Below are positions 1 through 10,891 of a stretch of DNA of 64,000 nucleotides, piece by piece. Source of the stretch: Flavobacterium limicola (lineage in GTDB: Bacteria; Bacteroidota; Bacteroidia; Flavobacteriales; Flavobacteriaceae); assembly GCF_003634755.1 (NCBI RefSeq), contig NZ_RBXA01000001.1, positions 1,426,001 through 1,490,000 of the forward strand. The letters run 5' to 3'. Numbering within the stretch: position 1 is the first letter of the stretch; each line of letters begins with the position of its first letter. A program made the translations under genes and the position numbers. The notes under the pieces are model-generated. The model worked only from the letters and a program-made list of their open reading frames with translations. It searched no databases and was not told the origin of the DNA.

Positions 1-149
1 TGACCACACAATATTGCGCGAGGACTTTCTGCTCCAGCGCCTTCTCCAAAATATCCCCAAAGTGCGAAAAACGAAACAAAAAATAATGCTACAGAATATA
101 AAATTTCTAATGCAACAATTTTTAGTAAAAGTAGATAGTTAATTTTCAA
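1..149 (-). CDS. Partial small membrane protein (sixth cassette)
   Basis: This is the 5' part of a gene that continues past the left edge of the window. Reading starts at a TTG at 147-149, after an AAAGAAAC stretch. An in-frame TAA lies upstream, and no ATG is available between them. The 49 visible residues are mostly hydrophobic, with Leu/Ile-rich stretches through about residue 32, consistent with a membrane segment, followed by a Gly-rich turn. The start lies about 40 bp inside the cassette edge, a spacing typical of compact cassettes. I do not recognise the family. Because the start is not ATG and the gene is truncated, it remains tentative. Confidence 0.45.
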   Translation of the reverse strand, partial: MKINYLLLLKIVALEILYSVALFFVSFFALWGYFGEGAGAESPRAILCG

Positions 150-182
150 GTTATGTTTCTTTAGATTCGTTTAAGTAGCATT

Positions 183-308
183 ACCGCTAACGTTATGCCA
201 CTTTGAGATGGCTGGAAGTTCGTAACCACTTAGTTTTCGGCTTAACGAAAACGTGATGCGAAACGGTAATTCCACTAAATTCCAGCTAGCTCAAAATGGC
301 TGTTGGGC
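183..308 (-). repeat. attC-like site A
   Basis: This palindromic site ends cassette 5. Read on the minus strand, the inverse core GCCCAAC (302-308) comes first and the core GTTAGCG (185-191) last. The two arms, GCCACTTTGAGATGGCTGGAA (197-217 plus strand, shortened here: GCCACTTTGAGATGGCTGG) and the facing strand GCCATTTTGAGCTAGCTGG, pair with a few mismatches. The central spacer contains its own hairpin, GTTTTCG (233-239) with CGAAAAC (245-251). The spacer type is shared with site B. Confidence 0.8.
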
Positions 309-3300
309 AATCCTGTTTTTAATTCAATATTAATTTCGATGATACTACTTTGGTACTTTCGAAGTTTACTTTTACGAAGTATATTCCTTTTCTGAAATTT
401 GATACATCAATTTTTATATCAGAGATATTAAAAACATTCTCATAGTAAATACGTTGACCTAAAGCATTATAAAATTCAATAGACTTAACTTTTTCAGAAA
501 TATTAGATTTAATATTCACATAATCAGTTGCTGGGTTTGGATATATTGATATTTCTTGCTCTAAATCAAAATCTGTAAGGCTCAATGTGCCCGTTGTATA
601 TTGATAAGTATCTGAATAAATTATATTCCCATTATTAGTGGCAACTAATCTGTAGTAATAAGTTTGTTTTGCCAACGGATTGTTGATTAAACCAGATATC
701 AAATTAGTATTATAACCATAAGCAAAATTTGGTGTTCCTGTTATTAATGAACCAAAACTGTTTGTAACTCCATACTCAAAATGAATGTTAGTTAAATATG
801 CACCTTGACAATTAATTAAGCCTTTTAATTTTAAAGAATTTGTTTGAGGTTCTTCTATTGTTCCATTAACTATTATAATATTTCTTGAAAAATTGAAAAC
901 TCTTTCCTCGCTATAAATTGCTTGTCCATTATGCATGGCTTTCAATCTGTAATAATAATTTAAATTGGCATCTAGGTTAGTAATTGTGGCACTTACATGG
1001 TTAGAGCTACTAGCGTTGATTTGCGAAGGATTGGTTGAAATATTGTTTTCATAATCGAGAGTACCATATTCAAATACGATGTCAGTTATATCTTTATTAT
1101 AGGATGTTAAATATGCTGATAATGTAACATTTGTTCCATTAATATTTGGACTGTTAATATTTATTTTATATTCTGGATAAGTTGTAAAGGACCGAATGTT
1201 ACCATAAATATCTTCCCCTTTGTGTGTGGCCTTTATTCTGTAGAAGTATTTTGTTTCTGGTTTTAAGTTAGTTAAACTTGCCTCAACAGTTGCTGTTGAA
1301 TTTCCTAATACAAGTGTTGGTGTTCCGCCTAAAGTACTATCAAGAACATCAGAACTCGTGCCATATTGAAACTCCACATTTGTAATGTCATACCCATTAG
1401 AAACTATATTGCCTGAAATTTGTGCAGTAGTTGATGAATAATTATAAGTAAAGTTTGTTGTTATTTCAAAATCGGGAAGTGTTGTGAAACTTAAAATTTG
1501 GCTGTAATATATATTTGAATTCTGTATTGCAGTTAATCTATAGTAATAGGTAGTATTTGATTCTAAGTTTATTAAATTTATTGAAATATTTGCAGATCCA
1601 TTTGAAGCAACTGTACCAGGTGTTGTAGCAATAATATTTTTGAAAGAGTGATCTAAACTGTACTCAAATTGAATGTTTGAAATAGCCTGGCCATTAGAAG
1701 TAGCATTACCAGTTAAGCTAGCACTTGAATTAGTAACGTTTTTAGCAGGATTAATACTTAAAACTATGGGTTGGTATTGCACATCACTTCTATAAATTTT
1801 ACCATTTGACCCTGCAGTATATATTTTATCATTAATAAGCTCAATAGAGTTAATAGCATATTGTTGAGTAAGATATTGCCAATTTAAGCCTCCGTTTTCT
1901 GTTTTATATAATTTTCCATCTTCGTCTGCAATATAACCTACATTTTTTGAATAAAACTTAACCTTTGTGTACCATTCGTAAGGAATTTCTAATTTTTTCC
2001 ATACAATACCTCCGTCAGTTGTTTTATAAATCAATCCTTGGTCACCGACAAAATATCCATTGTTCTCATCAATAAAATCAAAGGCATTGATTCCTTCGTC
2101 TACTTCAATACAAATGTTCCAAGTATTTCCACCGTCAATAGTTTTATACATACTACCATTTGAATATCCTATTCTATTGCCATATCCTACCAAATCATTA
2201 ACAAATTGTATTTCGCCATATAAAATAGATTTAACTTGTGTCCATGTGGAACCACCGTTTGTAGTTTTCATTACTTTTTTTTGATTGAAACCACCACTGA
2301 CATATCCTATATCATCATTTATAAAATTGATAGAAGACAAATCCTCGTTGATTATTTCATTTCCATTATTTAATTTGGTCCAACTTATGCCCCCATTTAT
2401 GGTTTTATAAACGGAGCCTGTAGTACCTGAAGTTCCTATAGTACCGCCAACTAAGGCATAGCCTAAATTTTCATTGATAAAATCAAATCTGCTAGTTTTC
2501 TCATTTTTAAGTGGAGGTCCAAGATTATTCCAAGTACTTCCTGAATCGATTGTTTTATAAAAATTATTTCCTTGTAAGGCATAACCTAAATCTTTATTGA
2601 TGAAATCAATTTGACTAAAGTCATTATACGTTATAGAATGCGGTGTCCAAGTATTTCCTCCATCTGTAGTTTTAATGATTCGACCGCGATCACCAGTAGC
2701 GTAGCCAATATTTTTGTTTTGAAAATATATACCGTACATAGAAGTTACAGCTACAAAGCCATTTTGAAAAAATATTTGATTCCATGTAGTTCCTCCATCA
2801 GTTGTTTTGTAGGTTGCACCATACTCTCCAGTAGCAAAACCATTATTCTCGTCTAAAAAATGAAAATCATAAATAGCTTGATTTGTTTCAGAAATTTCTA
2901 CCCAAGTTTCACCAGCATCGGTTGTTTTGTATAGGTCATTACGATCTCTTGTTGCGAAACCAATATTTTGATTTACAAAATAAACCGTAAAATAATCTGA
3001 AAGTGAAATATTATTGTTATCTATTGTTTTGTACCAATTTTGACCTCCATCAATGGTTTTTAGTATGATTCCATTATTACAAACTGCATGTCCAACTAAA
3101 GAACTGGTAAAAGCTGTTTTAACCACAGTGACATTAGGAATTGTAAAACTTTGCCAAGTATTTCCTCCATTATTAGATTTTACGATACTATTTGAAGTTG
3201 ATAGTATTATATTCTTATCATCTATTATATTAACAGTATTGCAATTACCGCTGAAACCAACAGAAATTTGATTCCATGATGCTCCGTTATCTACAGATTC

Positions 3301-3631
3301 TAGAACATATCCATTGTTACCGACAATATAACCTTTTGTATTGTAGAAACTCATATCATTTCCACTTGAGATATTTTGCTTTTTTGTCCAAGTATTACCA
3401 GCATCCAGTGTTTCTAATAACTCATTTGAAGTTATAATGTAACCAATATTATTTGTCACAAATTCAACACCTTTTCCAGTATTAGCTGTTGGTTTAGGAT
3501 TTAATAGTTCCCAATTTGTTTGCGAGTGAATTTTATTTATACATATAATAATATAGAACAGGATAAGTAGATTTTTTTTCATTTTCGATTTATTAATTAA
3601 TTCGTCTCCGTTTATTTAACATGTTGCCCAA
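191..3631 (-). mobile_element. Cassette 5 (3.4 kb, secreted T9SS protein)
   Basis: On the minus strand this cassette starts with TTGGGCAAC after the site B crossover and ends with the inverse core of site A, read TTGCCCAAC. The two match as exact complements over nine bases. It carries one gene, 319-3582. At 3441 bp it is several times larger than the other cassettes here and than typical integron cassettes. Confidence 0.75.
319..3582 (-). CDS. Secreted Ycf48-like/BNR repeat protein with T9SS sorting domain
   Basis: This 1087-residue protein is probably exported to the cell surface or medium. Residues 1-20 form a signal peptide. Residues from about 25 to 610 hold about a dozen repeats with the pattern YKTTDGGxTW and NNGYATG, typical of Ycf48-like/BNR beta-propeller blades. 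From about 620 to 990 there are four repeats of roughly 90 residues with FEYG, TYYYRL and FTT motifs, which look like fibronectin type III-like modules. The last 80 residues are a type IX secretion C-terminal domain, with IYPNPATDYVNI near its start and GIYFVKV near its end. Binding target and function are unknown; adhesion or a surface structural role is an inference. It is the only gene of its cassette, which is unusual for so large a protein. Confidence 0.85.
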   Translation of the reverse strand: MKKNLLILFYIIICINKIHSQTNWELLNPKPTANTGKGVEFVTNNIGYIITSNELLETLDAGNTWTKKQNISSGNDMSFYNTKGYIVGNNGYVLESVDNGASWNQISVGFSGNCNTVNIIDDKNIILSTSNSIVKSNNGGNTWQSFTIPNVTVVKTAFTSSLVGHAVCNNGIILKTIDGGQNWYKTIDNNNISLSDYFTVYFVNQNIGFATRDRNDLYKTTDAGETWVEISETNQAIYDFHFLDENNGFATGEYGATYKTTDGGTTWNQIFFQNGFVAVTSMYGIYFQNKNIGYATGDRGRIIKTTDGGNTWTPHSITYNDFSQIDFINKDLGYALQGNNFYKTIDSGSTWNNLGPPLKNEKTSRFDFINENLGYALVGGTIGTSGTTGSVYKTINGGISWTKLNNGNEIINEDLSSINFINDDIGYVSGGFNQKKVMKTTNGGSTWTQVKSILYGEIQFVNDLVGYGNRIGYSNGSMYKTIDGGNTWNICIEVDEGINAFDFIDENNGYFVGDQGLIYKTTDGGIVWKKLEIPYEWYTKVKFYSKNVGYIADEDGKLYKTENGGLNWQYLTQQYAINSIELINDKIYTAGSNGKIYRSDVQYQPIVLSINPAKNVTNSSASLTGNATSNGQAISNIQFEYSLDHSFKNIIATTPGTVASNGSANISINLINLESNTTYYYRLTAIQNSNIYYSQILSFTTLPDFEITTNFTYNYSSTTAQISGNIVSNGYDITNVEFQYGTSSDVLDSTLGGTPTLVLGNSTATVEASLTNLKPETKYFYRIKATHKGEDIYGNIRSFTTYPEYKININSPNINGTNVTLSAYLTSYNKDITDIVFEYGTLDYENNISTNPSQINASSSNHVSATITNLDANLNYYYRLKAMHNGQAIYSEERVFNFSRNIIIVNGTIEEPQTNSLKLKGLINCQGAYLTNIHFEYGVTNSFGSLITGTPNFAYGYNTNLISGLINNPLAKQTYYYRLVATNNGNIIYSDTYQYTTGTLSLTDFDLEQEISIYPNPATDYVNIKSNISEKVKSIEFYNALGQRIYYENVFNISDIKIDVSNFRKGIYFVKVNFESTKVVSSKLILN

Positions 3632-3754
3632 CGTTCCGCTGCCTGTGGCTGTTGTGGGAGTTCGTAACCGCTCAAGTTTCGGCTTTGCAGAAAGTTGATG
3701 CGAAACGGTAATTCCACTAAATCCCACAATAGATACAGACAGCTGTTATAAGGC
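3626..3754 (-). repeat. attC-like site B
   Basis: This site ends cassette 4. Read on the minus strand it runs from the inverse core in GCCTTATAAC (3745-3754) to the core GTTGGGC (3626-3632). The arms GCTGCCTGTGGCTGTTGTGG and the facing GCTGTCTGTATCTATTGTGG pair with mismatches. The spacer, with TTCGTAACCGCT and GCGAAACGGTAATTCCACT, is of the same subfamily as site A. Confidence 0.82.
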
Positions 3755-3819
3755 GGTTTTATTTTCGGTTTCGTGTTTCCACCGCTATTAAGCGAAACAC
3801 AAGTTTAAATTATTATGTT

Positions 3820-3927
3820 ATGAAATTTTTTAAATCGGATGAACAAGAAATTAGGTTTAATATTATTGTTACAATTATTGCTTTAGCAATATATATAATT
3901 CTTTCAACGCTAAGACAATCGCAATGA
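3820..3927 (+). CDS. Doubtful 35-residue membrane peptide
   Basis: ATG to TGA encodes 35 residues: a charged start (KFFKSDEQEIRF), one hydrophobic helix rich in Ile, Val, Ala and Leu, and a short polar tail. The composition is protein-like. However, the ORF is opposite in direction to every other cassette gene and overlaps the 3' end of the 3875-4279 gene by 53 bp. The same bases also fall in a 3' tail that is partly shared with cassette 3, where no equivalent ORF survives. It may be chance. Confidence 0.25.
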   Translation: MKFFKSDEQEIRFNIIVTIIALAIYIILSTLRQSQ

Positions 3928-4279
3928 AAAGTCCAATTCTCGCAAACTGTTTAGTTTTTGGAAATTCTTTGAGCATTTTTTGCGCTAGTTCTAAATCAAT
4001 TTTTGATTTTTCAAATTCTATACGTTCTTTTTCGGCAAAATATTTATGCTCTTCTATTATGTCCTTTAAGAATTTTTCTCCTTTGTCGGTTATAGAATAT
4101 ATAGAATCTCGATTATCGTCTTCAACAATCAAACTATTTCTTTCCAAGAAGTCAATGTTTTGTATAAAAACAATTCGGTCAAAATGCTCGTCAATTTTTG
4201 GATACAAATCTTGGTCTCTTAAATTAACTTTGTTTTGTTTGAAAAATATTAGATGGTTTTTTACTTCGATATTATTCAT
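3875..4279 (-). CDS. Hypothetical winged-helix-like protein with C-terminal membrane anchor
   Basis: This 134-residue protein is the gene of cassette 4. Residues about 25-75 look like a winged-helix fold: helices followed by LERNSLIVEDDNRDSIYSI and TDKGEKFLKDI, a common signature of small winged-helix proteins. Residues 75-110 are charged and probably helical. The last 22 residues (from about ARIGLFIAIVLALKELYIL) form one hydrophobic segment. The likely topology is a cytoplasmic domain tethered to the inner membrane by its tail. I do not recognise a named family. Cassette 3 carries a protein of the same layout but without obvious sequence similarity. Function unknown. Confidence 0.7.
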   Translation of the reverse strand: MNNIEVKNHLIFFKQNKVNLRDQDLYPKIDEHFDRIVFIQNIDFLERNSLIVEDDNRDSIYSITDKGEKFLKDIIEEHKYFAEKERIEFEKSKIDLELAQKMLKEFPKTKQFARIGLFIAIVLALKELYILLKQ

Positions 4280-4309
4280 AGTGTTTTCGGTATTTCGGTT
4301 CTCTAAACT

Positions 4310-4445
4310 GCCTTATAACGTTCCCGCGCTACACGCAGGCTGGGATTAAAGATGCGTATTCTTTCGGTTAAAAACAAATGTATCAAACACAAACTATTTT
4401 CAAATTAAGCCAATTGCCCAGCTTGCTTGTAGCGTGTGTTAGGGC
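4310..4445 (-). repeat. attC-like site C
   Basis: This site ends cassette 3. Read on the minus strand it begins with GCCCTAAC (4438-4445) and ends with GTTATAAGGC (4310-4319). The arms CGCGCTACACGCAGGCTGGG and the facing ACGCTACAAGCAAGCTGGG pair well. The spacer ending in ATTAAGCCAATTGCCCA is shared with sites D and E. Confidence 0.85.
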
Positions 4446-5035
4446 TTCGGTTTTATTTTTCGGTTTAGTTTCCGCACCGCTTTTAAGTCGGAAGCAATTT
4501 TAAATATTTTTGTTATGATTAATTATGTAAACCTTTTTTGTTCTATTGCTATCAAAGCAATTCCCAATAGCAACGGTATTAATATTTGCCACCAAAATTT
4601 TTCTACAAACGAAATAATAACGCTTTGTTGTTTCTCTTTTGCTTTTGGTTGGGTTGTCTGTTTAATTTCTGTTTTTAAAACACTTAATTCATCTGATTGA
4701 TTAAGTTGGCCAATTGTAGAATTATTAAAATTATTAGTTATGTTTCTATTGTCGGAATCTATTTTGTTTAAATATTCAATTCCTTTGAAGTTGATTTTCG
4801 CCCGTATAAAATCTACTTTCACACCAGTTCCATCACCAAATCGCAAGTCAATTCCGCTTCCGTATGATATTAATTTTTCTTTTTCCAGTTCAATTAATTT
4901 CTGTTTTAATTTTTTTGTGTTAGTTTCTAATCTAGAAACATCAACAGGTTCTCCGTTATTATTTTCTGATAAATATTTAAGTATTTTATATTCTAAAGTG
5001 TCTTTCATATTTCGGTTCTTTAAACTGAGCCCTAA
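4319..5035 (-). mobile_element. Cassette 3 (winged-helix/TM protein)
   Basis: The cassette starts on the minus strand with TTAGGGC and ends with GCCCTAA, an exact complement. It carries the gene 4523-5008. Its leader AGTTTAAAGAACCGAAATA and the tail between gene and site C resemble those of cassette 4. Confidence 0.78.
4523..5008 (-). CDS. Hypothetical winged-helix-like protein with C-terminal membrane anchor
   Basis: This 161-residue protein is the gene of cassette 3. Residues 1-50 (EYKILKYLSENNNG, then a Lys/Leu-rich helix ending LEKEKLISYG) look like a helix-turn-helix of winged-helix type. The domain continues to about residue 85 (KINFKGIEYLNKI). Residues 88-105 contain an Asn/Ser/Thr motif, NNFNNSTIGQLNQS, of a kind seen in several bacterial membrane-associated unknowns. 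A charged linker is followed by one transmembrane segment (WWQILIPLLLGIALIAI) and a short basic tail. I see no enzymatic motif. A membrane-tethered sensor or regulator is an inference from layout only. Confidence 0.7.
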   Translation of the reverse strand: MKDTLEYKILKYLSENNNGEPVDVSRLETNTKKLKQKLIELEKEKLISYGSGIDLRFGDGTGVKVDFIRAKINFKGIEYLNKIDSDNRNITNNFNNSTIGQLNQSDELSVLKTEIKQTTQPKAKEKQQSVIISFVEKFWWQILIPLLLGIALIAIEQKRFT

Positions 5036-5161
5036 CGTTCCCGCGCTACACGCGGTTTGGGACTAAATTAAGACTAATATTCGGATTTGCCAAAACTTCC
5101 AAATACAAACCAATTTCCCCATTAAACCTATTGCCCAAATCGCTTGTAGCGTGTGTTAAGC
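5029..5161 (-). repeat. attC-like site D
   Basis: This site ends cassette 2. The minus strand reads GCTTAAC (5155-5161) at the start and GTTAGGGC (5029-5036) at the end. The arms CGCTACACGCGGTTTGGG (plus strand, from 5043) and the facing CGCTACAAGCGATTTGGG differ at two positions. The spacer TAAATTAAGACTAATATTCG is close to that of site E. Confidence 0.87.
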
Positions 5162-5513
5162 GGGGGTTGTTTAGTCGGAATTACAATTAAACCGCAAATT
5201 TTTCACGCTTCTGTATTTCGGTTTGTTATTTTTAACTTTCACGTTTGTTTTTAGTTTTCTGTTATTTGGTTCCAATTTTCACGTTTCCTTTTTCCAAGTT
5301 TCTATTGTCAGATTCCAATTTTCACGCTTCTGTTTTCCGAGTTTCTGTTTTTCCACTCCAATTTTCACACTTCTGCTTTTCAGGTTTCAACTTTCCAGCT
5401 TCTGTTGGCGCTTCCGTTTTTCACGCTTCAGCTTTGTTAATTTCTTGCGGAAACAAATGCTTGTTTTCTAATGGATTTCTTCTGCGTAATTTCGGCTTTC
5501 AACTCCCGCTTAA
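5036..5513 (-). mobile_element. Cassette 2 (no recognisable gene)
   Basis: The 478 bp between the site E and site D crossovers start on the minus strand with TTAAGCGGG and end with CCCGCTTAA, an exact complement over nine bases. No minus-strand frame stays open for more than about 25 codons. The body is a degenerate tandem repeat, described separately. The start, AGTTGAAAGCCGAAATTA, is a variant of the leader of cassettes 3 and 4. Confidence 0.75.
5200..5450 (-). repeat. Degenerate ~24-30 bp tandem repeat filling cassette 2
   Basis: Read on the minus strand, units resembling CAGAAGCGTGAAAATTGGA recur about six times with varied spacing: CGTGAAAAACGG, TGTGAAAATTGG, CGTGAAAATTGG (twice), CGTGAAAGTT and CGTGAAAAATTT. 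The units put TGA stops in frame, so a protein on this strand is unlikely. Two + strand ORFs of 82 and 99 codons here are Phe/Ser-rich translations of the repeat. A structural RNA or a decayed repeat protein are both possible. Confidence 0.6.
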
Positions 5514-5642
5514 CGTTCTGGCACTACAGCGGGTTTGGGATTAAATTAAGACCATTATTCGGATTTGCCAAATCATTCCAAATGCAAAACCATTTTTCCA
5601 TTAAGCCAATTGCCCAAATCCGTTGTAGTGGCTGTTAGGTGC
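5505..5642 (-). repeat. attC-like site E
   Basis: This site ends cassette 1. The minus strand starts with GCACCTAAC (5634-5642), where ACCTAAC fits the integron inverse core RYYYAAC. It ends with GTTAAGCGGG (5505-5514), where GTTAAGC fits the core GTTRRRY. The arms GCACTACAGCGGGTTTGGG and the facing CCACTACAACGGATTTGGG pair with three mismatches. The spacer belongs to the site C/D subfamily. Confidence 0.88.
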
Positions 5643-6310
5643 TGGCGTTTTTATGCTGTTAAAATAATATCATACTTTTTTAATATTTCTACAGCTTCCG
5701 AAAAGGCGTTTAAACCTTCTTGATATGATGGGAATTTTGGTCGATGTCCTTTTACCATATTTACAAATTCTCTACCTTTTTGTATTTTGTCAACTTCATT
5801 TTTAGGAATTAACAAATCATTGCAAAGCAAATTAATTACATTTATTAATTCGATTTTTTGTTCAATTATGTATTTATTGTTTACACACATTCTCAAAACC
5901 ATTTCAAAATTCGCAACGTTTTCAAAATCTTCGTCTAATAAATCATAATCAGTTATATTACCATATTCTTGATAACATTTTGAGTAAAATTCTTTTAATG
6001 CAGGAGCAGATAAAAGTAAAAAAAGGAAATCTACATTTTTCATTTCCATTTGTTTCTCAGTAGGTATCAATTCGACTTCTCCTTCTTTAGCAACAATAAT
6101 ATTGTCTGGAATTCCAATATTTATTAAATTGATGAAGCAAACGTAATCACCGTGTCTTATAGCATTAAATTCCTCTTTGTATTTAGTTATTTCAGCTTTA
6201 GATTTAAGTACTTTTAGCATATAACCAACAACAAAATCATAGATTAGTTTTTCTTTAGCCATTTTTGATGTTTAATTTTGAACGTGATTTTGAGGTACGC
6301 TTGCACCTAA
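5514..6310 (-). mobile_element. Cassette 1 (attI-proximal)
   Basis: This is the cassette next to the recombinase, hence by integron logic the most recently gained. It starts on the minus strand with TTAGGTGC and ends with GCACCTAA, an exact complement over eight bases. It carries the gene 5651-6262, with about 48 bp between cassette edge and start codon. Confidence 0.78.
5651..6262 (-). CDS. Hypothetical 203-residue cassette protein
   Basis: I do not recognise this protein. It has no signal peptide or transmembrane segment and looks soluble and largely alpha-helical. It begins AKEKLIYDFVVGYM. The middle has a short Leu-rich stretch (VDFLFLLLSAPALKEF) and many acidic residues, with DYDLLDEDFENV around residues 104-116. 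The C-terminal third contains FVNMVKGHRPKFPSYQEGL and a final helix. No catalytic motif is apparent. As the first cassette it would be the one best expressed from any promoter in or near the attI region. An Imm-like or other accessory role cannot be judged from sequence. Confidence 0.7.
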   Translation of the reverse strand: MAKEKLIYDFVVGYMLKVLKSKAEITKYKEEFNAIRHGDYVCFINLINIGIPDNIIVAKEGEVELIPTEKQMEMKNVDFLFLLLSAPALKEFYSKCYQEYGNITDYDLLDEDFENVANFEMVLRMCVNNKYIIEQKIELINVINLLCNDLLIPKNEVDKIQKGREFVNMVKGHRPKFPSYQEGLNAFSEAVEILKKYDIILTA

Positions 6311-6380
6311 CTTGTATATATGTATGACAAAATCATACAAACCCATCCAGTTTTGGGTAGATATGTATGACAAATACCAT
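6303..6380 (-). other. attI-like recombination site
   Basis: Between the recombinase stop codon and the first cassette lies the core ACCTAAC (6305-6311; GTTAGGT on the minus strand). Beyond it, two 14-bp direct repeats ATATGTATGACAAA lie at 6318-6331 and 6361-6374. Each is the left part of a short inverted repeat (GTATGA/TCATAC and GTATG/CATAC). Between them is ACCCA/TGGGT (6341-6345, 6354-6358). Paired recombinase-binding repeats beside a single crossover core are how attI sites are built. There is no long palindrome like the cassette sites. A -7-like box TATATTTG on the minus strand (6395-6402) could be part of a cassette promoter, but no -33 partner is seen. Confidence 0.65.
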
Positions 6381-6413
6381 ACTTTATTTTAATTCAAATA
6401 TATAGATAATTCA

Positions 6414-7457
6414 TTACAAATCATCAAAAGGACTTTTAATTTGTTGAATACTTTTCGTACTTACATGGGTATAAATTTCGGTAGTCTTACTACTGTTATG
6501 GCCTAATAATTCCTGTATATATCGTAAATCAGTTCCGTTTTCTAGTAAATGTGTGGCATAACTGTGACGCAACCAGTGTAATGTTACGGGTTTTTTATTC
6601 CCCACTTTTTGAAGAGCTTGTTTTAAAACACTTTGTAAACTTTGTTCTGAATAGTGTTCTCCTACATTTTGCCCTTCAAAAAGCCAAGTTTTAGGTTTGC
6701 TTATTACATAATAATCTCGCAGCATTTCTAATATTTTTGGAGACAAAGGAACAATTCTATCTTTTTTACCTTTGCTTTGTCTGATTATTACAATACCTCT
6801 TTTTGAATCAATATCATTTGGTTTTAAATTTAAAAGCTCACCTCTACGCAAACCACAACTATAAATTAAGGACAGCATCGTTTTGTGTTTGATGTTGCTA
6901 TGCGCATTTAATATCAATTTTACTTCTTCTTTGCTTAATACATTGGGTAATAGTTTGGCTCGTTTGGGACGATGGATTTTATCAATATCGATTTTGGTGC
7001 CTATAATTGTTATAAAGAATAATTTAATGGAGTTGACCGTTTGATTCTGATACGAAGCCGAAAGCTTATTCTTTAAAATATACTCGTTATTATAAATAAT
7101 CACGTCCTCATTATTGATTTCTACAACGGATTTTTCTCGATAGAAAATCAGGAAAGATTTTAAGGCTTCGCTATAGGTACTAATGGTGCTTTCGCTATAT
7201 CGTTTAGAACGAAGCCATTGTTTGAATTTCTCTATTTGAATAATCCCCTCGGCGGAAGGAAGAGAATTTTTCAGGGGTTCTATCTTGAAACGTTCTCTAT
7301 TTTCGATTGTATCGGGCAGATGCCACACCGTTTTTTGCTGACTCCATCGTGCTCCTGCTACTTGCTTGATACGCGCAATCAAATCTTGATTTTTTTCAAA
7401 GTAAACAGCAATCCGGCTTTCGCCTTTGTGTTTTATGGGTTTTGCAGTCCAAGTCAT
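6414..7457 (-). CDS. Tyrosine recombinase of the cassette array
   Basis: This 347-residue integrase is the likely enzyme that moves the cassettes. Residues 1-60 are an extra N-terminal domain with IKQVAGARWSQQKTVWHLP (31-48), which resembles a HARP-type repeat. Residues 70-155 are the SAM-like core-binding domain (YSESTISTYSEALKSFL). Residues 170-347 are the catalytic domain, with Arg in CGLRRGEL (R204), Lys near 229-231, H294 and R297 in HWLRHSYATH, H320 in LLGHNS, and the nucleophile Y329 in IYTHV. It is XerC/D-like. Between the Lys and the HxxR box there is no IntI-type insertion of the KYPNA/WGWQYVFP kind. The gene points toward its attI, so attI is at its 3' end as in reverse-oriented integrons such as that of Treponema denticola. 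Confidence 0.9.
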   Translation of the reverse strand: MTWTAKPIKHKGESRIAVYFEKNQDLIARIKQVAGARWSQQKTVWHLPDTIENRERFKIEPLKNSLPSAEGIIQIEKFKQWLRSKRYSESTISTYSEALKSFLIFYREKSVVEINNEDVIIYNNEYILKNKLSASYQNQTVNSIKLFFITIIGTKIDIDKIHRPKRAKLLPNVLSKEEVKLILNAHSNIKHKTMLSLIYSCGLRRGELLNLKPNDIDSKRGIVIIRQSKGKKDRIVPLSPKILEMLRDYYVISKPKTWLFEGQNVGEHYSEQSLQSVLKQALQKVGNKKPVTLHWLRHSYATHLLENGTDLRYIQELLGHNSSKTTEIYTHVSTKSIQQIKSPFDDL

Positions 7458-8491: not shown

Positions 8492-9733
8492 TTATTGTTT
8501 TGGAGCGGGTTGTTTTTCCAGCATTTCCAATTCGAAAATAAGCATTGTATTGGGTGGAATAACACCACCGGCGCCTCTTTCTCCATACGCTAGATTTGAT
8601 GGGATGAAAACTACTGCTTTGTCGCCAAAAGCCATATTTTCCAGTCCTTCAATAAATCCTGGAATCATACCGTCTTTTTTTCCTGCTTCAAAAGGGAAGG
8701 CTTGGTAGCCGTTTTGTGCGGCACGATTTGCGTCAAATTTGCCATAGGATTTATTCACGGCTTCATAACTGCTGTCAAATAGCGTTCCGTCCTCAAAATA
8801 ACCAGCATAATTAAAATAGAATGTCGTTCCGTTAGCGGGTTTTACTCCAGTTCCTTTTTCAATTATTTTGTACGCTAATCCAGACGGAGTAGTAGTCGCT
8901 GTGGCTTTAGTAGCGACTAAATAAGCTTTTTTTGCAGCTACTACAGGACCGTATTTTTCAGTGTACGCTCTTTTGGCTTCGGCTTCAATTGCTGCTTTTT
9001 TTGCTTTGTTTTCAGCGTTGATCCGGTCCTGTTTCTTTTGGTCTTCGGATTTATTGTTGAAATAATCAGCAAACACTTTTGGGGCGTCAAATTTCTGGGC
9101 TAAATCACCTTTTCTTACGATGGTAATTTTTGTGATTACATCGTTTTGCGCAATTGAGTTTACTATATTCATTCCTTCGGTAACGTGACCAAAAATGGTG
9201 TGTTTTCCGTCTAACCAAGGCGTTTCTTTATGCGTAATGAAAAACTGGCTTCCATTAGTAGTGGGTCCAGAATTTGCCATAGAAAGGATTCCAGGTTTGT
9301 CATGTTTTAAGTCGGTGAATTCATCCTTGAATGCATAACCAGGTCCACCAGAACCATTTCCGGAAGGATCTCCGCCTTGAATCATGAAGTCTTTGATGAC
9401 ACGGTGAAATTTTAAACCATCAAAGAACGGTTTTCCTTTTAGTTTGTCATCTGTGACAAAGGTGTTTTTCCCTTCGGCAAGTGCAATGAAGTTAGCCACT
9501 GTTACGGGTGCTTTTTGGTATGCTAATTCCAGTACAATATCTCCTTTGTTTGTGGCAATTGTTGCAAAAATCCCCTCGATTACCGTTGGAGTTTTTACCG
9601 CAGGCTTTGCTGGCGATTTTACAGTTGCTTTGACACTTGTTGCCGATTTTTTGGCAGGAACGGATTTCTTGACCGTTTGAGAATGTACGTTGACCATTCC
9701 CAGAAATAATAAAAACAGAATTTTAAATTTCAT
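8492..9733 (-). CDS. Cyclophilin-FKBP fusion prolyl isomerase, secreted
   Basis: This 413-residue protein combines two unrelated prolyl cis-trans isomerase folds. A signal peptide (residues 1-19) is followed by a Lys/Ala/Pro-rich spacer to about 50. The cyclophilin domain spans about 53-215, with [28 protein letters not shown] and [10 protein letters not shown] charged helix leads to a C-terminal FKBP domain, about 275-408, ending [20 protein letters not shown]. It probably folds exported proteins in the periplasm. It is the last gene of the DHH/gldI operon, 33 bp after a paralogue of the same layout. The latter is a lipoprotein and this one is not. Confidence 0.88.
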
Positions 9734-9766
9734 GTTGTACTAATTTAAAGGCTTATTTTTTTAATA

Positions 9767-10891
9767 TTATTGGGGCATTTTTTCTAATAACTCAATCTCA
9801 AAAATGATATTCGCATTGGGTGGTATTACTCCTCCAGCACCCGCTGCTCCATATCCTAAACGGGATGGAATGAAAATTACGGCTTTGTCACCAAAAGACA
9901 ATTGCTCCAGTCCTTCAATGAAACCAGGAATCATGCCATCTTTTTTACCTGCTTGGAAAGGGATGGGTTGGTACCCGTTTTGTGCAGCTCTGTTTTCATC
10001 GTATTTGCCAAAGGTTTTAGCTACATTTTCGACACTGGCATCAAATAATTCTCCGTCTTCCAGAAAACCGGCGTAATGAATGAAAATTTTGGTGCCTTTG
10101 GCAGGTTTTTTACCACCGCTTTTTTGGGTAATCACGTATTGTAATCCAGTAGGCGTTTTTGTCGCTTTGGTTTTCAAATCAGTAAAATAAGCTACTTTTT
10201 GTTCGCGAACTCCTTTGTATTTTTCGTTGTACACTTTTTTGTTTTCGGCATCAACAGCTGCTTTTTTCTTTTGATTTTCAGATTCCACAGCGAAATAGTC
10301 GTTGAATATTTTTACAGCATTGAATTTTTTAGCCGCTTCACCATTTCTGATGATGGTTACTTTAATGATGTAATCATTTTGTTCAATTTTGTTTACTACT
10401 TCCATTCCATTTTCGACTACATGACCAAAAATGGTGTGTTTTCCGTCTAACCAAGGTGTTGCAAGATGCGTGATGAAAAATTGACTGCTGTTCGTTGTAG
10501 GTCCGTTATTGGCCATAGCCAAAACACCGCCTTTATCAAATTTCAAATCAGAAAATTCATCTTTAAATTTATATCCGGTATCTCCAGAACCTGTTCCAAG
10601 CGGATCTCCGGTTTGTATCATAAATTCTTTGATAACTCTGTGGAATTTTAAGCCGTCAAAAAAGGGTTTGTTTTTAAGATTTTCATTGGTAACAAATTCA
10701 TTTTTTCCTTCGGCCAAGGCTACATAATTGGCCACCGTGATAGGTGCTTTTTCAAAATCTAATTGTACAATGATTTCGCCTTTATTGGTTTCAATTTTAG
10801 CATATAAACCATCAGGAAGATTGTTGTGTTCTTCTTTGCAAGAGTAAAATGAAGCAATTACCAGGAATACGAATAGAATCTTTTTTTTCAT
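9767..10891 (-). CDS. Cyclophilin-FKBP fusion prolyl isomerase, lipoprotein
   Basis: This 374-residue protein is a paralogue of the gene just downstream. The N-terminus ends in SFYSC, a lipobox, so it should be anchored to a membrane facing the periplasm. The cyclophilin domain is at about 28-190, with [20 protein letters not shown] and [11 protein letters not shown]. The FKBP domain is at about 245-373, with [20 protein letters not shown]. The two paralogues share even the linker motif [20 protein letters not shown], so they arose by duplication. It lies 12 bp after gldI, clearly in one transcript. Confidence 0.88.
   Translation of the reverse strand: MKKKILFVFLVIASFYSCKEEHNNLPDGLYAKIETNKGEIIVQLDFEKAPITVANYVALAEGKNEFVTNENLKNKPFFDGLKFHRVIKEFMIQTGDPLGTGSGDTGYKFKDEFSDLKFDKGGVLAMANNGPTTNSSQFFITHLATPWLDGKHTIFGHVVENGMEVVNKIEQNDYIIKVTIIRNGEAAKKFNAVKIFNDYFAVESENQKKKAAVDAENKKVYNEKYKGVREQKVAYFTDLKTKATKTPTGLQYVITQKSGGKKPAKGTKIFIHYAGFLEDGELFDASVENVAKTFGKYDENRAAQNGYQPIPFQAGKKDGMIPGFIEGLEQLSFGDKAVIFIPSRLGYGAAGAGGVIPPNANIIFEIELLEKMPQ

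Follow-up and report, generated by a model that had tools for sequence, protein, structure and literature searches.

Can gene cassettes be gathered into an integron by a recombinase other than the canonical IntI? The question is raised by the window analysed here, a stretch of 64,000 nucleotides from Flavobacterium limicola in which a first-pass annotation had read six cassette junctions in a single orientation. These junctions were confirmed as an attI plus five complete sites, all on the minus strand of the chromosome. The array begins with a gene for a tyrosine recombinase of 347 aa without the IntI insertion (6414-7457), followed by the attI (6308-6371) and then by five complete attC-like hairpins. 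The attI contains three copies of a 7-nt box (direct at 6365-6371 and 6322-6328, inverted at 6332-6338) and a crossover core, G6311|TT. Cassette 1 (5514-6310, 797 bp) has a single ORF (5651-6262, 203 aa) for which a Pfam search found no match; its palindromic site 1 is at 5502-5646, coordinates that run from R'' to R' plus flanks of 10-12 nt and take in the start of the next cassette. The other four sites are palindromic as well. Cassette 2 (5036-5513, 478 bp; site 2 at 5024-5167) has no clear gene and holds degenerate 43-bp repeats, cassette 3 (4319-5035, 717 bp; site 3 at 4307-4450) carries an ORF of 161 aa (4523-5008) and cassette 4 (3632-4318, 687 bp; site 4 at 3620-3757) one of 134 aa (3875-4279) with a weak winged-helix match below the cut-off. 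Cassette 5 (191-3631, 3441 bp; site 5 at 179-314) codes for a protein of 1087 aa (319-3582) with PSII_BNR repeats and a T9SS sorting tail. The first part of cassette 6 (697 bp in all, 9494-10190 of locus L006) occupies positions 1-190 and crosses the window start. Beyond position 1 the array continues for another ~5 kb, to ~1421000 of the contig, with ~11 cassettes in total.

The first description, in which cassettes are arranged by the site logic of integrons next to a recombinase other than canonical IntI, is supported. In each of the six cassettes of this home array, the 8 nt that follow the G are an exact reverse complement of the cassette's own R''. Counting a match at 6 or more of 7 nt, the cassette start and the R'' box of the same cassette's attC were reverse complements in 89 of 102 neighbouring pairs from 81 loci, compared with 14 of 153 same-site pairs and 29 of 658 other pairs taken as controls. 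The complementarity was also found in 28 of 36 cases at 14 loci from other genomes of the class, a test that took 50 of 54 site matches. Such complementary ends are the signature of integrated circular cassettes. In the 81 loci, 194 of 196 site-model matches lie on the recombinase strand, behind the 3' end of the recombinase gene. A simple site finder gave 129 plus-strand and 22 minus-strand matches in 86 loci, and 10 in a control in which one strand of each locus was shuffled once. Plus means the strand of the recombinase gene, other than in L001 and L006, which contribute 10 of the 22 minus-strand matches, two of them counted twice. In 77 of 89 cassettes the longest ORF shares its strand with the recombinase gene. 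One cassette is duplicated at 99.6% identity with exact ends, and another is common to two species at 96%.

As in integrons, the attC is a conserved imperfect palindrome with free sequence. With 42 of the 49 diverse sites taken into the site alignment (A2), the hairpin columns were paired in 90.5% of 924 cells, compared with 62.9% after shuffling and at most 41.1% in slid controls. Double changes numbered 234 (73 when shuffled), and just nine changes in the arms were one-sided, eight of them at one T-G position. The sites have a fixed 1x5 internal loop and a conserved A.C mismatch (116 of 131 sites, the ones among 139 that passed a length filter), and in 106 of the 131 the more stable fold is that of the bottom-strand arms. 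The R boxes consist of about 10 variable nt. Core boxes of the IntI type, RYYYAAC and GTTRRRY, occur in 8 and 9 of the 131 sites, AAC and GTT themselves being present by design, since the site finder demands them.

The recombinase is made up of an N-terminal 'GARWS..WHLPD' module (residues 1-60), a core-binding domain and a catalytic domain. Residues R204, K229, H294, R297, H320 and Y329, to which we assign catalytic roles on the assumption that they act as elsewhere in the family, are invariant in the recombinase alignment (A3). The protein passes the curated cut-off of NCBIfam NF040815 (XerA, 221.5 bits vs. 220) and fails that of TIGR02249 (IntI, 209.8 bits vs. 265), and its best structural match by VIA-align is XerA. 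The XerC/D-like label first given to the enzyme calls for correction, its scores being nearer to XerA and IntI than to XerC/D. Alignment and model agree that the additional domain of IntI (an insertion of ~40 residues near patch III with the helix I2, considered essential in known integrons) is absent, and the spacing between KGxxDR and HxLRHS is 58–60 residues in all 109 relatives measured (of 118 scanned loci) and 100 in all 25 IntI measured (of 27). The N-terminal module showed a weak relation to DUF5710, which 5 of 18 members matched at E 5 or better (best 2e-4), that of the window recombinase itself scoring far below the cut-off; matches to solved structures were short and doubtful, the best (3.8e-4 over 19 residues) being to a-iTHR-201. 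The module was also considered as the reader of the attI boxes and discarded, with a correlation of at most 0.12 and no signal. Two more Xer-like genes (L002 and L003) are present in the same genome.

The attI lies beside the recombinase, as it does in integrons, at a distance of 102-108 bp behind it in 65 of 81 loci. Its box correlates at 0.41–0.63 with recombinase residues 266, 270, 272, 275 and 276, and for residue 276 the partial correlation was 0.63 against a permutation maximum of 0.31 (55 loci, out of 74 rows). In the 64 loci that remained when 8 of 72 rows with stops or an odd motif were left out, L276 paired with the box TTCG in 17 of 17 cases, with TTCG nowhere else, and Q276 with AGCG in 11 of 11, with one AGCG elsewhere. 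Thus the attI boxes track residues 272 and 276 of the catalytic domain, which makes it likely that attI is read by this enzyme as double-stranded sequence. The attC arms do not follow these residues or the box, so that attC is more likely read by shape; a search for the attI box in the arms gave nothing above chance (score 4.42 vs. 4.46 permuted, 126 sites).

Homologues of the recombinase with adjacent palindromes, which the first-pass annotation had proposed to look for, do exist in related genomes: sites were found at 14 of 20 recombinases of the class, picked for long contigs and spread of identity, and in 48 of 60 sampled Flavobacteriaceae genomes, one per genus. Among relatives the flank is kept and the cassettes are different, synteny breaking at the recombinase end or at the attI. 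Identical gene order in sister strains, which had been named as evidence against a cassette system, was not what F. petrolei offered. There, the 9.46 kb that lead up to the recombinase stop are 93.3% identical, but the first cassette is unrelated and the site that closes it is interrupted by an IS; the contig ends 125 bp further on. The array is, as in integrons, of one orientation and variable in cassette content. The other objection, that the palindromes might be dispersed independently of the recombinase family, was tested as well. Of the 30 sites in this genome 20 are outside the main array, but 17 of these share the strand of one of 19 further attI copies and lie no more than 5 kb downstream of it (two listings compared by hand), and in the 81 loci the strand counts are those given above. 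Against a link, 9 of 17 tested genomes of the genus have sites without a recombinase of the family (E 1e-35). Searched for recombinase remnants, the 500 nt before the stray attI copies were indistinguishable from shuffles except for one repetitive match, and tblastn found none at E 0.01; the last 60 nt gave a signal in 3 of 6 copies in a first test and in 8 of 19 at ≤2 of 500 shuffles.

When these arrays are compared with IntI integrons, such as those of class 1 and the chromosomal integrons of Vibrio and Treponema, both have cassettes formed by a gene and a palindromic site, complementary cassette ends and a crossover at G|TT. Common to them are also one-way arrays with the attI beside the recombinase, clusters without recombinase, and the combination of a sequence-free attC with a cognate attI. 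In contrast to IntI, the recombinase found here lacks the insertion of ~40 residues that bears I2 and has the extra N-terminal module, while the sites have variable R boxes instead of RYYYAAC/GTTRRRY and the fixed 1x5 loop and A.C mismatch. The recombinase gene mostly reads towards the array, as in Treponema, and is divergent in L119 and L179. Rules that require the extra domain of IntI would presumably call these arrays CALIN (clusters of attC lacking IntI) or miss them; unlike CALIN, they have a recombinase and an attI.

We are largely confident that the window holds a gene-cassette array (attI, five attC-like hairpins and cassettes) whose neighbouring I2-less recombinase, a sister of IntI, likely uses recombination between a folded attC and a double-stranded attI to capture and excise circular cassettes. 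The case is built from sequence comparison: cassette boundaries at G|TT, end complementarity, covarying hairpins, a near-fixed attI distance, different cassettes in relatives, and duplication and sharing with exact boundaries. The neighbouring recombinase would do the cutting, and one attC strand, probably the bottom one, would fold into the hairpin, as covariation and fold energies suggest. The A.C mismatch and the 1x5 loop may mark the strand, a role played in IntI systems by I2 and by extrahelical bases. New cassettes would enter at the attI, and those nearest 6310 would be the newest, as the first-pass annotation had proposed.

The same system and enzyme could instead recombine attC as double-stranded DNA, the palindrome being no more than two recombinase sites in inverted orientation, an arrangement familiar from Xer and Cre. 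The absence of I2, credited with single-strand recombination in PMC7790495, and XerA as the best structural match would fit this reading, but we find it distinctly unlikely because a sequence reader would conserve the arms. Instead, a single array with a single enzyme holds different arms (8 different 9-mers in L017), the arms change in pairs with the few one-sided exceptions described, and the same arm is found alongside five attI box classes. It is very improbable that the arrays are IntI integron relics (CALIN) with the recombinase as a bystander, e.g., a dimer resolvase or phage integrase. Arrays without recombinase do exist, and true IntI exceeds the cut-off in 84 of 296 genomes of the phylum, but none of the 85 genomes with a match in that search belongs to this genus, family or order, and one belongs to the class. 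Moreover, 184 of 186 site-model matches outside the home array are behind the recombinase and on its strand, the attI boxes follow its residues, and R1 found nothing at 30 IntI loci. It is hardly credible that the palindromes serve as transcription terminators, RNA genes or repeats of the REP/MITE type and that the array is an accident. The sites are indeed palindromic and repeated, some with IS-derived MITEs inside, but junction complementarity between neighbours would have no reason, one-sided changes to G.T are almost absent save at one position, unlike in an RNA helix, and an Rfam search gave no match in the array and none that is attC-like, the lone hit being a Flavo-1 RNA below its cut-off.

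Concerning origin, the choice left at first between a divergent integron and a convergent system now leans to the former. In a tree that includes 16 of the 20 loci L164-L183, with insert columns left out, the recombinase family and IntI form one clade (support 99/92) with XerA, XerC and XerD outside, and the family is the sister of IntI and not inside its clade, each being on one side of a branch. An independent origin from a XerA-type enzyme, compatible with the same mechanism, is unlikely. The lack of I2, the different core consensus, the other loop geometry and a tree with just five outgroup rows, some with long branches, speak for it; against it are the common clade and the same G|TT crossover and attI position. 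XerA acts in chromosome dimer resolution at dif. The family described here passes its curated cut-off and has the same two-domain core but is found beside cassette arrays and, in the tree, falls closer to IntI. We regard it as rather probable that Bacteroidia own a second integron branch, sister to IntI, that recombines folded attC without I2, in which case recombination of hairpin cassettes would be older than I2 or would have been reached along a different route. The branch would then also have a readable code in which residues 266-276 of the protein correspond to the attI box, telling which recombinase serves which attI.

Integron surveys look for the extra domain of IntI, and the paper on IntegronFinder 2.0 reports hardly any integrons in Bacteroidetes (PMC9024848), a phylum listed as having them in two other sources (PMC8618304, PMC9668308). 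In the genomes searched here, true IntI does occur in other classes of the phylum. A comparable platform is present in most sampled Flavobacteriaceae genera and widely in the class, which offers a plausible vehicle for a large stock of mobile genes. The recurrence of the layout across many Bacteroidota likely reflects gene swapping through this second, IntI-less branch. An I2-less sister family beside hairpin arrays also makes the role of I2 in single-strand recombination directly testable; passages of the IntI1 evolution study in eLife state that direct proof of I2 having caused it was not available and that intermediates were lacking (PMC7790495). The attI code may also help in designing recombinases that are specific for a chosen attI.

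An IS with a DDE_Tnp_1_6/DUF772 transposase, which we take to be IS1182-like, is inserted precisely at the AACG|TT core, as are its MITEs. The sequence CGTCAGGCTGTGAAAAAA at array ends was considered as the right half of attI and turned out to be the terminus of an IS/MITE lying within AACG|CGTT. Known elements that target attC are IS1111-attC and the group IIC-attC introns, with which the IS found here has the insertion at attC in common, being of a different type.

The home array of Flavobacterium limicola begins with a tyrosine recombinase of 347 aa (6414-7457, minus strand). It is followed by an attI, with its crossover G at 6311 on the same minus strand, that separates the recombinase from the attC-like sites. 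The window holds five complete sites, all on the minus strand and one at the end of each cassette. DNA of the same genome (locus L006) shows that the array continues ca. 5 kb beyond window position 1, to about 1421000 of contig C1, and comprises about eleven cassettes in total, with one truncated attC-like site near 8215 of L006 and a final site, near 5018 of L006, broken by an IS end. Cassette 2 has no clear gene and carries, at 5194-5445, degenerate repeats of ca. 43 bp (TTTTCACGCTTCTG), and an erythromycin-esterase-like domain (PF05139, E 3.4e-14) was found in a cassette gene at 5153-6271 of L006.

The way in which cassettes are joined points to their mode of integration. An integrated circular cassette is expected to start with a half-site that pairs with the R'' (outer) box of its own attC, and the start of each of the six cassettes touching the window paired exactly with its own R'' over the eight bases past the G. 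Over the main recombinase set (L006-L086) we compared the seven bases following GTT with the R'' of the next site, counting as a match at least six positions. Neighboring pairs matched in 89 of 102 cases, and the controls in 14/153 (same site) and 29/658 (other pairs within the locus); in 14 additional loci of the class the corresponding values were 28/36, 2/50 and 3/146. Site-specific recombination of circular cassettes is the only explanation we know for this complementarity.

The comparison with relatives shows where the variable part starts. F. petrolei is the closest named relative among the fetched loci (recombinase 97%, and 93.3% over 9.46 kb); homology with it reaches the recombinase stop, and with F. 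xueshanense (L008) it extends as far as the attI core. The cassettes are unrelated to those of both species, save for short stretches near the sites. The first cassette of F. petrolei is closed by a site with an IS end identical in kind to that of the last site in the home array; 125 bp of contig remain after it. In F. saccharophilum two cassettes of 1088 bp agree at 99.6% over their full length, and another of ca. 410 bp recurs (96%) at a different array position in Flavobacterium sp. LC2016-12. A plasmid of Chryseobacterium sp. SNU WT5 carries such a system (recombinase 70%, six sites); a group II intron and an IS110 transposase lie among its cassettes (L132, 16001-31389).

The sites share a common layout, derived by stacking 131 of 139 sites (110-126 bp long) on AAC and GTT. 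Outermost is the R box (ca. 10 bp for a cassette paired with itself, then a C opposite a near-invariant A). Inward of the R box, AAC/GTT is followed by an internal loop that sets one base (A) against five (RRAAC), a stem of ca. 13 bp that is weak in the middle, an A.C mismatch (116/131 sites), and finally six pairs and a loop of ca. 70 nt. Over 42 diverse sites, 90.5% of the cells were paired (shuffles 62.9%) and double changes numbered 234 (shuffles 73). Controls slid by 1-3 columns paired at no more than 41.1%, although the structure was derived from the tested sites, which favors the unslid register over the slides. Only nine one-sided changes were found, eight of them at a single T-G position, the pattern expected for a DNA rather than an RNA helix. 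The bottom strand folds more stably, in 106/131 cases for the arms alone and 91/131 for whole sites. The classical integron boxes are not conserved (GTTRRRY in 9/131 sites, RYYYAAC in 8/131).

These sites are tied to the recombinase. A covariance model of the site (R1) found 196 sites in 53 of the 81 recombinase loci, of which 194, by hand count, lie on the recombinase strand beyond its 3' end; one exception was upstream and the other was a true site read in reverse. Among the 28 loci without a match, 23 have less than 2 kb behind the gene and five (L027, L044, L064, L074, L083) have more. On the 3' side of the gene 59/80 loci have a contig end within 10 kb, compared with 15/80 on the 5' side, a bias that repetitive or variable arrays would produce. 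At 30 loci of IntI, the canonical integron integrase (110 kb), R1 gave zero matches. The recombinase is divergent from the array at two loci (L119, L179). The position of the catalytic Tyr329 is His in L064, where the 10 kb downstream of the gene gave zero attC matches, and a stop in L020. Longer relatives of the enzyme (552-580 aa), with additional copies of the N-terminal module (about three by eye), are also found beside attC-like sites (L124, 3268-5010; L125, 6691-8349).

The attI core, TATA-N3-6-GTT, follows the recombinase at 102-108 bp in 65/81 loci and at 30-260 bp in 74/81. Upstream of the core a 7-nt box occurs three times, in the order direct, inverted, direct; it varies among loci and is consistent inside each (94.6% and 89.2% paired versus 62.7% and 60.5% when shuffled, 37 loci). 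Across 64 loci the box followed residue 276 of the recombinase: Leu with TTCG in 17/17, TTCG occurring with no other residue; Gln with AGCG in 11/11, with one further AGCG elsewhere; Asn with TGGC in 8/11; and Ser with TCA in 15/22. Loci with Ser276 divide further by residue 272: Gln272 is paired with TCATA in 5/6, Lys272 with TCAGA in 7/14 (the remainder a few letters off) and Tyr/His272 with TCAC in 2/2. The exception among the Gln272/Ser276 rows is F. petrolei (L007, 11045-11149), with own-type residues in a recombinase 97% identical to that of the window and boxes GTAGCGC, of the AGCG class; it is a natural enzyme-site mismatch. With overall identity removed, the correlation at residue 276 was 0.63, versus a maximum of 0.31 in 200 label permutations; for the N-terminal module the correlation with the box was at most 0.12. 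The Leu/TTCG pair shows eight concordant switches on the best tree, of which well-supported branches carry just two independent pairs. The code position resembles helix J of Cre. The attC arms did not follow the attI box (score 4.42 versus 4.46 permuted, 343/500 permutations equal or higher), and a single arm, CACGCTACA, was found with five box classes. Since box class tracks the recombinase, attI is cognate to its enzyme and likely read by sequence, and the lack of a box match in the arms indicates that attC is common property, likely read by shape. The same division holds in integrons with IntI.

The system is widespread. Sites were detected (E 1e-5) in 48 of 60 Flavobacteriaceae genomes, one per genus, and the recombinase (E 1e-60) in 151/345 genomes of the class (Bacteroidia in GTDB), with sites at 14 of 20 inspected loci. 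True IntI exceeded the cut-off in 84/296 genomes of the phylum, none of the 84 from the home genus, family or order. PMC9024848 credits Bacteroidetes earlier with In0 only and later with one complete integron, in Salinibacter ruber, and gives the extra domain as the mark distinguishing IntI; its extra helix, I2, is covered in PMC7790495, and PMC8618304 lists the phylum as having integrons, with PMC2426708 as a further source. No description of such arrays was found in the titles or abstract starts listed by searches of open-licence papers.

Sites without a family recombinase (E 1e-35) were found in 9 of 17 same-genus genomes tested. The home genome itself has 30 attC-like sites, ten of them in the main array, and 20 attI copies (E <0.004, reverse readings excluded) for one close recombinase. 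Within 5 kb downstream of some attI copy lie 17 of the 20 stray sites. The 19 stray attI, at 19 places (L191-L208), have no intact adjoining recombinase and belong to several box classes; in eight, a trace of the 3' end of the recombinase persists at the correct place, and the GTT core is gone from at least five. Of 18 loci fetched around these copies, 11 contain a site (E 1e-8 or better). Integrons that arrived repeatedly and then lost their recombinase are the simplest explanation, and some stray attI are possibly still served in trans. Genes with TIR-type domains (by eye), possibly defence genes, lie beside stray sites (L190, 1505-3621).

The attC cores also harbor transposable elements: an IS of ca. 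1.72 kb with a 529-aa transposase (PF13751/PF05598), and MITEs of 465 and 113 bp. The IS may target the folded attC. In the home genome we found nine IS-end matches, two with one mismatch (control 0). At four loci where both ends are present, the elements sit exactly at the attC crossover between AACG and CGTT (L019, 13012-14736; L127 (rc), 11253; L041, 19375; L190 (rc), 7029).
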